A stretch of 64,000 nucleotides of DNA, from assembly GCA_029194535.1 (NCBI GenBank), contig JARFXR010000001.1, positions 248,001-312,000 on the forward strand, read 5' to 3'. The translations under genes were made by a program, and so were the position numbers. Under the pieces are notes generated by a model. That model had not been told where the DNA came from. It worked only from the letters and a program-made list of their open reading frames with translations, and searched no databases. Below, one piece after another: positions 38,539 through 50,676 of this stretch. The stretch comes from Nitrospira sp. (lineage in GTDB: Bacteria > Nitrospirota > Nitrospiria > Nitrospirales > Nitrospiraceae). How positions within the stretch are numbered: the stretch's first letter is position 1; every line of letters begins with the position of its first letter.

Positions 38539-39147
38539 ATGTCTGCGGAACGGAATGAAGTCGCAACTGAGTGTTTCAACCGGAGCATCAAGCTACCTTT
38601 TGGCCTTCGATTGAAAGATTTCGAGATGGCCATGCAGGATGTCTATGATTTCTTTTATGACGTGAATTGCGGCCTGATCGATCGCGGTCTCCAGCGTCTC
38701 GACGACATGCTCCGGCCTGCGATCATATCCGGTGTTTTGTCGGACATGCTCACGGCAAGTTTGGCAAAACATTCCAGGAGCCTGACCGTTAACCTCTATC
38801 ACAACGGTCACCCTGATCTCGTTGTGAGCGGGGTACATCCTGACAATAAGGTTAAAGCGGGGACCGACGGCGTCGAGATCAAGACCACTCGGAAGGCCGG
38901 CGGTGCTGTCGACACCCATGGCGCACGGGATCAGTGGATGTGCGTTTTTGTCTATCAGATCGATAATTCAACTGAGCCGGCGAAGGACAGGGTGCCAATG
39001 TCGGTGACTGAGATCTATCTCGGAAAAGTTACCAAGACCGACTTTCGCAAGAATCAGCGGGGAGAACTCGGCACTCGCACAGCCACTCTGCACAAGGGCG
39101 GTATTGAGAAGTTGAGGAAGAGTTGGGTCTACAAGCTCAGGAGATGA
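38539..39147 (+). CDS. Type II restriction endonuclease, PD-(D/E)XK fold
   Basis: A 202-residue protein, the size of small type II enzymes such as BamHI, BglII and BstYI. The catalytic pattern is P92-D93 (NGHPDLVVSG), then E113-x-K115 (DGVEIKTTRK). The downstream RKAGGAVDTHGARDQWMCVF block could carry recognition or dimer contacts. Specificity is not predictable by eye. It converges with the methyltransferase gene, overlapping it by 19 bp at the 3' ends. A/T content is higher than in flanking genes, suggesting transfer. A C-terminal paralogue remnant lies at 50320. Confidence 0.8.
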   Translation: MSAERNEVATECFNRSIKLPFGLRLKDFEMAMQDVYDFFYDVNCGLIDRGLQRLDDMLRPAIISGVLSDMLTASLAKHSRSLTVNLYHNGHPDLVVSGVHPDNKVKAGTDGVEIKTTRKAGGAVDTHGARDQWMCVFVYQIDNSTEPAKDRVPMSVTEIYLGKVTKTDFRKNQRGELGTRTATLHKGGIEKLRKSWVYKLRR

Positions 39148-40295
39148 TTCTCTCCATTTTTGAAAGCAGCTAGTCTTGGGAGGGCCTTTCTTCCCATCTC
39201 AAAGTAGTGTGGATCCTTTTCAATCCCGCTACTTTCATATCCCATCGCTTCAGCTGCAGCAAGAGTTGACGCTGCTCCACAAAATGGATCGAGTACCACT
39301 CCCTCTCCGAGTGGTAGAACACCTCGGACTAAGGTACGGAGGAACTGCTGAGGCTTCAAGCTCGGATGCGGCGCCAACTCCCGTTCTGACTTATGAGTGG
39401 GCGCCGAAGGGATCACGTCTCCGAACGGTTTATCCGAAGAAGGCCTTCGAAAGCCTCCCGTTCCCCATTTACGAAGATTATCCTGTACCCTTCCCTCCAG
39501 CGGCTTACGGAAGAGCAACCATGGTTCCCACATCGATCGGGGCATCACGCTGATATCAGGAAACTCCTCGTGAGCCGCCTTCGGTCTGTCTCCCCCTCTC
39601 ATGGTCATTACGAGGCGAACGATCTCTCCACGCCTTTCTAGGCCTGCTTTCGCGAGAGCGCCTGAGACCAGGTAAGACAACAGGGGATTTGTAGCCACGA
39701 CGACGTTCGCCCCCGGAACCAGGACGGGGATGAGCACCTTTGCCCATTCGAGAAAAAACAATTCAAGGGCGCGCAGATCTTGAGGTGAGAGCACCGTGAA
39801 CCTGGGAAGAGGGGCGCGCTGGACTCCGTCAAATGAAGGAGGGATTCGCCATACCCCTCCCTTACCTTTCCGTAATTTCTCTTGCTGATCCGAGGTGTAT
39901 TCGAATAAGCCGTACGGAGGGTCTGTGACGACAGCATGAACGGTTTTGTGTCTCTGTTCCTGCAACCAGTTCAAACAATCGGCCTGAAACACTTGCGCTT
40001 TGCGGTACGAGAAGCTGGGCCAATATTGGGGATTGGATTCGGTTACCTTGTTGGCCTGTATTCTCGCAGTCGTCTTTAGCCCATACTGACCCCTTCCCGT
40101 CCGCACAAAGGTCGACGGAGTGTTGAGCCTGAGGTAGGAGCGAACGCTGGATCGTGCCGCGATTCCGATCAGATCACTAACATGCTGCTCTATCGTTTTG
40201 AGGGAAGCGCCACTCGGCCTTGCGCGTAGTACGGAAAGAATTGCGTCCCGTACCTCACCAGGCCGTCGCTTGTGCTGGGTCGGCGACTTGTACAC
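39129..40295 (-). CDS. Site-specific DNA methyltransferase (beta-class) with N-terminal winged helix
   Basis: A 388-residue enzyme from GTG 40295. N-terminal winged-helix domain (EVRDAILSVLRARPSGASLK, about residues 15-70), motif IV VVTDPPYGLF at about 125, then a variable recognition region, then motif I VVLDPFCGAASTLAAAEAMG near 336. Order IV before I makes it beta class, giving N4-methylcytosine or N6-methyladenine. It protects sites of the paired nuclease. Start choice: the frame is open 66 codons further, but a promoter ends 7 bp before GTG 40295, so the message would be leaderless. Confidence 0.85.
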   Translation of the reverse strand: MYKSPTQHKRRPGEVRDAILSVLRARPSGASLKTIEQHVSDLIGIAARSSVRSYLRLNTPSTFVRTGRGQYGLKTTARIQANKVTESNPQYWPSFSYRKAQVFQADCLNWLQEQRHKTVHAVVTDPPYGLFEYTSDQQEKLRKGKGGVWRIPPSFDGVQRAPLPRFTVLSPQDLRALELFFLEWAKVLIPVLVPGANVVVATNPLLSYLVSGALAKAGLERRGEIVRLVMTMRGGDRPKAAHEEFPDISVMPRSMWEPWLLFRKPLEGRVQDNLRKWGTGGFRRPSSDKPFGDVIPSAPTHKSERELAPHPSLKPQQFLRTLVRGVLPLGEGVVLDPFCGAASTLAAAEAMGYESSGIEKDPHYFEMGRKALPRLAAFKNGENHLLSL

Positions 40296-40302
40296 GGGTC
40301 GG

Positions 40303-40331
40303 AGAGTAAGACGTCTAGACGTCTTTGTCAA
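40303..40331 (-). promoter_or_regulatory. Methyltransferase promoter with operator palindrome in the spacer
   Basis: Minus strand: -35 TTGACA (40331-40326, perfect), 17-bp spacer, -10 TACTCT (40308-40303). The spacer and first base of the -10 form the perfect palindrome AAGACGTCTAGACGTCTT (40325-40308). A regulator binding there would block RNA polymerase. The start codon GTG is 7 bp downstream of the -10. The same unit recurs at 50648-50676. Confidence 0.75.
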
Positions 40332-40388: not shown

Positions 40389-40509
40389 CCACGGCTTGAC
40401 AGCCGTGGTCCCTCTGGTGTCTTCGGCGGAGCCCGCCGAAGCATGTCCTCCTTCGCCAAGGCCTCGGAGGATACCCATTGCGCATTCCTCCACGGTTTAG
40501 CAGCCGTGG
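40389..40509. repeat. Paired hairpins, possible IS200/IS605-type remnant
   Basis: CCACGGCTTGACAGCCGTGG at 40389-40408 and CCACGGTTTAGCAGCCGTGG at 40490-40509 are similar hairpins 101 bp apart in the same orientation, with a third stem GGCGGAGCCCGCC between. Palindrome-bounded scraps like this are left by IS200/IS605 elements. No tnpA or tnpB is present. Confidence 0.4.
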
Positions 40510-47043: not shown

Positions 47044-47550
47044 ATGAAAACCCCCATCGCGCTGTTCGTGTTTACACTGATCGGCAGTATCGGGATCGCA
47101 ACCCTTCTATACGCAGCGAGTTCCAAGATTGTCGAAGGAGACGTGCTGAAGATCGAGGGAGACTATTATACGGTGCACGATACGGCCGGCCACGAAGTCC
47201 GCTTGCATGTCGACAAGACCACGCACTTGGAGGGCGGCACCTTCAAGGTGGGGGACAAGGTCGAGACCCACGTGACGGATAAGGGGCACGCGCGTTCCAT
47301 CATCCATCTAACCGCCGCCGGTACGATGGCCACGTCTGGTTCGAGGATCGTCGAAGGAGATGTGCTGAAGATCGAGGGAGACTATTATACGGTGCACGAT
47401 ACGGCCGGTCACGAAGTCCGCTTGCATGTCGACAAGACCACGCACCTGGAAGGCGCTTTCAAGGTGGGGAACAAGGTCGAGGCTTATGTGACGGATAAGG
47501 GCCACGTGCGGTTCCTATACCACATCAAGCATCTCGAGCCGGCGAAATAG
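47044..47550 (+). CDS. Secreted protein made of a recent tandem domain duplication
   Basis: A 168-residue protein: signal peptide (IALFVFTLIGSIGIATLLYA) and two nearly identical domains of about 57 residues, each beginning IVEGDVLKIEGDYYTVHDTA and ending VTDKGHxR. Same general beta pattern as the preceding gene and the protein at 24113. Preceded by AAGAAGGAGGC. Likely periplasmic; function unknown. Confidence 0.72.
   Translation: MKTPIALFVFTLIGSIGIATLLYAASSKIVEGDVLKIEGDYYTVHDTAGHEVRLHVDKTTHLEGGTFKVGDKVETHVTDKGHARSIIHLTAAGTMATSGSRIVEGDVLKIEGDYYTVHDTAGHEVRLHVDKTTHLEGAFKVGNKVEAYVTDKGHVRFLYHIKHLEPAK
47131..47486. repeat. Direct tandem repeat, period 219 bp
   Basis: 47131-47270 and 47350-47486 agree at nearly every base (differences such as ACGTGC/ATGTGC, CCGGCC/CCGGTC and one 3-bp indel). 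This near identity is far closer than between other domains of the family, showing a recent in-gene duplication or gene conversion. Confidence 0.85.
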
Positions 47551-50226: not shown

Positions 50227-50319
50227 CCGGTTCACGTTGGATTCCTGGACCAGCCACCCTCAGCTGACGCCGCGCGGGAGTCGGAAAAGATTCCCAGTAC
50301 CTTCACAAGAGGTCAAGCT

Positions 50320-50646
50320 TTAGTCGTGAGCGGTGTATACGCCGACAACAAGGTCAAGGCTGGTTCCGAAGGTGTGGAAATCAAGACGACTCGGAAGGCC
50401 GGTGGCGCCGTCGATACTCACGGAGCGCGGGATCAATGGATGTGCGTCTTTGTCTACCACGTGGACAACGAGGCTGAACCTGCAAGAGACAGAACGTCGA
50501 TGACGGTTACAGAAATCTACCTTGGAGAGGTCACGAGGGATGACTTTCGAAAGAATCAACGTGGTGAGTTAGGCACTCGAACGGCGACCTTGCACAAGAG
50601 CGGGATTGAAAAACTGAGACAGAACTGGGTATACAAGCTGAATTAA
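50320..50646 (+). pseudogene. Restriction endonuclease C-terminal remnant (second R-M locus)
   Basis: From about 50320 the frame reads LVVSGVYADNKVKAGSEGVE, IKTTRKAGGAVDTHGARDQW and ends LRQNWVYKLN. It matches residues 94-200 of the nuclease at 38539 at roughly 85%, but the DNA differs at many third positions, so this is not a recent copy. The N-terminal half and catalytic PD (here QA) are missing; E-x-K remains. Could be translated from GTG 50326 but cannot be an active nuclease. Confidence 0.8.
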
Positions 50647-50647
50647 T

Positions 50648-50676
50648 ACAGTAAGACGTCTAGACGTCTTTGTCAA
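50648..50676 (-). promoter_or_regulatory. Orphan copy of the methyltransferase promoter/operator
   Basis: TTGACA (50676-50671), 17-bp spacer with AAGACGTCTAGACGTCTT (50670-50653) and TACTGT (50653-50648), identical to the 40303-40331 element apart from one base in the -10. It starts 1-2 bp after the stop codon of the nuclease remnant and points into it, as if the methyltransferase gene between them had been deleted. Confidence 0.7.

Follow-up and report, generated by a model that had tools for sequence, protein, structure and literature searches.

A conserved palindrome in the promoter of a winged-helix DNA methyltransferase gene as a predicted operator for autorepression

What controls the methyltransferase gene (M) of a Nitrospira restriction-modification (R-M) unit whose promoter spacer is filled by a perfect palindrome? 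An earlier note on this DNA had suggested that the enzyme represses its own gene through an N-terminal winged helix (wHTH). We followed up this suggestion in the window, the whole 64,000-nucleotide stretch of DNA that was analysed, and in relatives of the enzyme from other genomes.

The methyltransferase gene and its promoter

The promoter layout claimed for the minus strand was exact, with TTGACA (40326-40331), a 17-bp spacer (40325-40309), TACTCT (40303-40308), a gap of 7 bp (40302-40296) and the GTG start codon of M (40295-40293). All 17 bases of the spacer lie inside the 18-bp perfect palindrome AAGACGTCTAGACGTCTT (40308-40325), as had been described, and the palindrome's 18th base doubles as the opening base of the -10 hexamer. 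The two GACGTC sequences that had been noticed in the palindrome are arranged in tandem, 8 bp apart. They make up the core of the predicted operator, GACGTC-TA-GACGTC (40310-40323), in which two units, each palindromic in itself, surround a centre. Chance would give 0.3 perfect palindromes of at least 18 bp per 64 kb; the window has three, and two of these are copies of AAGACGTCTAGACGTCTT. When up to three mismatches from AAGACGTCTAGACGTCTT were allowed, 0.05 sites were expected in the window and two were found (at 40308 and 50653), both exact, the second of them absent from the earlier note. In the 3.98-Mb genome the core GACGTCNNGACGTC occurred only at these two places, the operator at 40308-40325 and the copy at 50653. 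The M promoter was missing from the list of a generic promoter scan, because its -10 hexamer matches the consensus at just three of six bases. The window's own -10 being weak, support for the promoter comes from its relatives. Just upstream of the M promoter, at 40389-40441, there are two perfect short hairpins, CCACGGCT/AGCCGTGG and CTTCGGCGG/CCGCCGAAG.

The M gene (39129-40295, minus strand) encodes 388 amino acids, comprising the winged helix and a beta-class N6/N4 amino-methyltransferase, and its mRNA is predicted to be leaderless from the conserved position of the start codon. The protein matches PF01555 (E = 4e-13) and PADLOC MTase_II (6e-107), and its DPPY motif is invariant. In a structural search that covered mainly the catalytic domain, the fold resembled M1.HpyAVI and CcrM (Z about 22). 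The N-terminal winged helix, at about residues 9-76 (40068-40271, minus strand) according to the predicted model and the alignment, was borne out by the AlphaFold model, in which residues 12-73 form three helices (12-25, 32-43 and 48-57) and two wing strands (63-67 and 70-73). The third helix, SSVRSYLRLN, is nearly invariant and is the most conserved part of the winged helix in the alignment. A Pfam search with the winged helix gave nothing above threshold. The HARE-HTH profile (PF05066) gave weak matches in 4 of 22 wHTH sequences (best E = 9e-4), none of them the window's own, and sequence searches of the PDB returned no convincing relative. The winged helix was found only once per host genome, together with this M, in 15 of 16 genomes, the sixteenth having an extra partial match.

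The neighbouring R gene (38539-39147, plus strand), which is convergent with M and overlaps its 3′ end, encodes a predicted PD-(D/E)XK restriction endonuclease. Its model is confident (pLDDT 92), and every one of its 29 best fold matches in the PDB is a type II restriction enzyme (such as NaeI, BglI or EcoRV), though with E > 0.001 throughout (best 0.0018). The PD-(D/E)XK residues D93, E113 and K115 are invariant, and PADLOC REase_II was matched by 25 of 44 relatives (best 1e-6). R adjoins M in convergent orientation in most loci. M and R form a type II R-M unit with genes placed tail-to-tail, in which the activity of R is predicted from sequence and model. No separate regulator ORF was found between M and R in the window, and the arrangement is not of the C-protein type.

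Conservation of the operator among relatives

Relatives of M were gathered by protein alone, so that the operator could not bias the choice. The resulting set consisted of 100 distinct loci less than 90% identical to one another, 88 with the winged helix and 12 without. The core GACGTCNNGACGTC was present just upstream of M in 87 of the 88 wHTH-bearing loci and in none of the 12 wHTH-less ones. All 12 specified core bases were invariant in these 87 loci, while the proteins are only about 57-85% identical, and the centre was a YR step (TA, CA, TG or CG) in 79 of them. The sole exception (L231) has kept one half-site while the other has decayed, and no R homologue was found in the stretch fetched. 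The loci span more than 10 phyla, including Nitrospirota, Pseudomonadota, Acidobacteriota, Chloroflexota, Gemmatimonadota, Myxococcota, Thermodesulfobacteriota, Planctomycetota, Verrucomicrobiota, Elusimicrobiota and Actinomycetota, although many of them are metagenome bins, for which single assignments are uncertain. The palindrome could have been a chance sequence or a repeat without regulatory function, such as a recombination site or a hairpin, and the deletion of M right beside its second copy would suit such a reading. Against this, the core is invariant over 87 loci and occupies a fixed place in the promoter; the comparative data in effect refute such an origin, and we give it a probability close to nil.

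In a tree of the catalytic domains, all wHTH-bearing enzymes, fused and split, fell into a single clade (support 100/98). Because they form one clade, the winged helix and the operator are read from the tree as having been gained together, one time. The loci are consequently not independent, and the Fisher value for the association of winged helix and core overstates the case. The weight of the evidence lies in the retention of 12 bases over a divergence to about 57-85% protein identity and not in repeated co-gain. Joint loss of winged helix and operator was considered and is not supported, as the wHTH-less enzymes fall outside the wHTH clade.

Comparison of wHTH-bearing, split and wHTH-less loci showed that the palindrome tracks the winged helix rather than the catalytic domain. 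Only on actinobacterial plasmids of Iamia (L128), Mycobacterium avium (L129) and Gordonia (L130) is the winged helix split off as a small ORF of its own ahead of M, and there it is this ORF that has the core in front of it. In the viral relatives L117, L118 and L120, R is 66-68% identical to the window's R, but winged helix and core are both absent. These data also bear on the idea that another, chromosomal regulator binds the palindrome and that the winged helix serves the methyltransferase reaction. Such a regulator is conceivable inasmuch as binding of the operator by M itself is a prediction; however, the operator follows M through many phyla and onto plasmids, it is absent where the winged helix is absent, and the host genome has no other copy except in a remnant of the same system. 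We consider this explanation extremely improbable.

The placement of the operator within the promoter spacer, as seen in the window, is conserved, the core lying between the -35 and -10 hexamers in the relatives. The -35 hexamer had no more than one mismatch to TTGACA in 73 of 87 relatives, and TANNNT was found 0-5 nt from the core in 70 of 87. In 62 of 87 loci the hexamers of the best promoter around the core were spaced 17 bp apart, and a promoter with at most three mismatches at a spacing of 16-18 bp was found in 59 of 87 loci as opposed to 1 of 870 control positions. The position of the start codon close behind the -10 hexamer proved to be conserved as well: in 58 of 87 loci an in-frame start followed the core at a distance of 11-16 nt, compared with 10 of 174 in the other reading frames, which served as control. 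In 33 loci an in-frame stop interrupts the stretch from the first base of the core to the coding region of M, so that translation cannot begin ahead of the core in these. Comparison of the loci thus strongly supports a start codon at or next to the expected start of the transcript, as for a leaderless mRNA. About a third of the relatives have longer leaders, so leaderless expression would not be universal.

MerR-type activators bind in the promoter spacer, and the position of the operator could accordingly mean that the winged helix binds it and activates M by MerR-like distortion of the spacer. MerR-type promoters have overlong spacers of 19-20 bp, whereas 17 bp dominates here; with this spacing and near-consensus -35 hexamers the promoter should work unaided, and an activating M would be needed before any M is made. 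Activation is therefore very unlikely.

We also considered the operator as part of a wider regulon and rejected the idea, the genome of the window having two copies only. In 396 Nitrospirota genomes, the core occurred outside wHTH-M loci at about chance frequency, and the centres were mostly not YR. No winged helix was found near isolated copies of the core in viral contigs, and no homologues of R or of the winged helix were found in 11 core-bearing genomes without the system, the search for R having had no positive control.

Several relatives depart from the common layout. A Woeseiaceae locus has three tandem GACGTC at 8-bp steps rather than two (L083:3605-3626). Enterobacterial and Pseudomonas plasmids carry, besides the core, a lone GACGTC some 22 bp ahead of it (L125:849-884 and L127:2909-2944), perhaps an auxiliary half-operator. 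On a Microvirga plasmid, an additional divergent wHTH ORF adjoins the fused wHTH-M gene (L124:2599-2814, minus strand), with a Kiwa KwaB-like gene in the vicinity. In Acidiphilium, a wHTH-less relative of M is accompanied by a separate small helix-turn-helix gene beside R (L131:4081-4302, minus strand), possibly a C-type controller that replaces the winged helix.

Predicted autorepression and the methylation target

We consider it highly probable that the palindrome is the operator of M itself and that M sterically represses its own gene through its winged helix, without a separate C protein. Self-repression and the leaderless start are strongly supported by the comparison of loci, from which the binding, the repression, its stoichiometry and the leaderless transcript are predicted. 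The third helix, SSVRSYLRLN, would read the GACGTC units, which occur as a pair, offset by 8 bp, on either side of a flexible YR step. As the units are each palindromic, the operator could take one dimer or two. Since the operator takes up the whole spacer of a near-consensus sigma-70 promoter whose 17-bp spacing is ideal, bound M should exclude RNA polymerase. In a new host that contains no M, the promoter would be free, and the leaderless mRNA would allow fast synthesis of M and protection of the host. Accumulating M would then shut its own gene and would thereby be held at a set level, again with no C protein needed. R is probably not directly controlled, because it is convergent and has no operator site: nothing comparable was found ahead of R, where a single GACGTC occurred in 3 of 82 upstream regions.

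The further suggestion that the palindrome might overlap the methylation target was unsupported. Host genomes show no clear avoidance of GACGTC, and the wHTH-less relatives whose R is 66-68% identical lack the operator site. If methylation were coupled to control, GACGTC or an overlapping sequence would be the target, and methylation of the two promoter sites, whether or not it is read by the winged helix, would tune M as in CfrBI or EcoRII. The palindrome does offer two palindromic 6-mers, each with an adenine open to a DPPY enzyme; perfect conservation of 12 bases would suit a double function; and there is precedent both for methylation of promoters and for an HTH-fused M whose repression depends on methylation (PMC3874152, PMC12707154). 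However, GACGTC showed no special depletion in hosts, with an observed/expected ratio of 0.82 in host loci versus 0.94 in controls (z = -1.6, rank 7 among 6-mer palindromes). Moreover, the M promoters of the wHTH-less relatives have no GACGTC, and the separate wHTH ORFs on actinobacterial plasmids retain the operator. We therefore regard methylation-coupled control as unlikely. It is quite unlikely, too, that M modifies GACGTC in its promoter and that the winged helix binds the modified (or only the unmodified) form. If this were true, the gene would read out the completion of methylation rather than the amount of enzyme, and a single protein would act as writer and reader in a switch whose site is invariant in many phyla.

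GACGTC was likewise rejected as the restricted target, no clear avoidance being seen in host loci or in host genomes compared with relatives without the system. The most depleted 6-mer palindrome in the host loci L033-L112 was CAGCTG (0.56 versus 0.78 in controls, z = -3.1), whose depletion was slight in the window's own genome. CAGCTG is a weak candidate for the restriction target, and we claim no target.

Comparison with known systems and a second operator copy

M had been likened to M.SsoII-type enzymes. The likeness holds for the logic, an HTH-fused methyltransferase with a palindrome at its promoter, but not for the family, since SsoII is an m5C enzyme with another operator and divergent genes (PMC3695355). 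M.Ecl18kI and M.SsoII repress their own gene by competing with RNA polymerase (PMC3695355). As in these enzymes, a short N-terminal DNA-binding region is fused to the methyltransferase (71 residues there, about 80 here), and a palindromic site is located at the M promoter. They are m5C enzymes with a C-protein-like HTH, whereas M is a beta-class amino-methyltransferase (PF01555, DPPY) with a winged helix. Their site is GGACA...TGTCC, in contrast to GACGTC-YR-GACGTC inside the spacer; their genes are divergent with R activated, whereas R here is convergent and without a site. By analogy, M is predicted to work like the SsoII family in repressing its gene, but it is not a member. M.EcoRII, likewise an HTH-fused methyltransferase, represses its own gene but leaves R alone (PMC12707154); unlike what is proposed here, it is an m5C enzyme whose repression depends on methylated substrate sites.

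C proteins are small HTH regulators dedicated to one R-M system, with palindromic promoter boxes and leaderless mRNA (PMC4824078), and the separate wHTH ORFs of the actinobacterial plasmids are arranged like a C gene. C proteins are separate, have an HTH of XRE type and control R, whereas the present regulator is a winged helix, is usually fused to M and apparently controls M. The tandem 6-mers of the operator are reminiscent of RptR, a 79-aa R-M repressor that reads 6-bp palindromes (TAGCTA) in direct promoter repeats and is conserved with its site across genomes (PMC12255303); it differs in being a separate protein of a type I R-M system, with another recognition sequence and with relatives reported mainly in Gammaproteobacteria. 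In CfrBI, palindromic sites in the M promoter set the R-M balance (PMC3874152), but the CfrBI site is the methylation target, whereas the operator described here has no support as a target.

Autorepression of methyltransferases is documented, in the reviews consulted, for m5C enzymes, and this operator was unreported in the literature searched, coverage of which was incomplete. An amino-methyltransferase that represses itself by a winged helix would be a separate lineage. The comparison predicts the repressor's site base by base, and the existence of separate wHTH ORFs hints at the way in which a stand-alone controller turns into a self-repressing enzyme and vice versa. Operators usually drift. 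This one, contrary to that rule, is almost unchanged across more than 10 phyla, and it provides a simple sequence marker for finding such systems and their remnants.

The second exact operator copy in the window (50653-50670) lies within TTGACA-17-TACTGT on the minus strand, which points into a sequence (50239-50646, plus strand) that represents the 3′ part of another R gene, with 74% DNA identity to R over 317 bp. The palindrome follows within 7 bp, and the -35 hexamer of the M promoter lies beyond it. Through promoter and operator, about 27 bp are identical between this second unit and the intact one. From its sequence, the stretch 50239-50670 seems to be what is left of a diverged R-M unit that has decayed and lost M by deletion. 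Elsewhere in the window, the gene at 47044-47550 encodes a predicted secreted protein built from two repeats, each about 50 residues long and almost identical to the other (SKIVEGDVLKIEGDYYTVHDTAGHEVRLHVDKTTHLEG).
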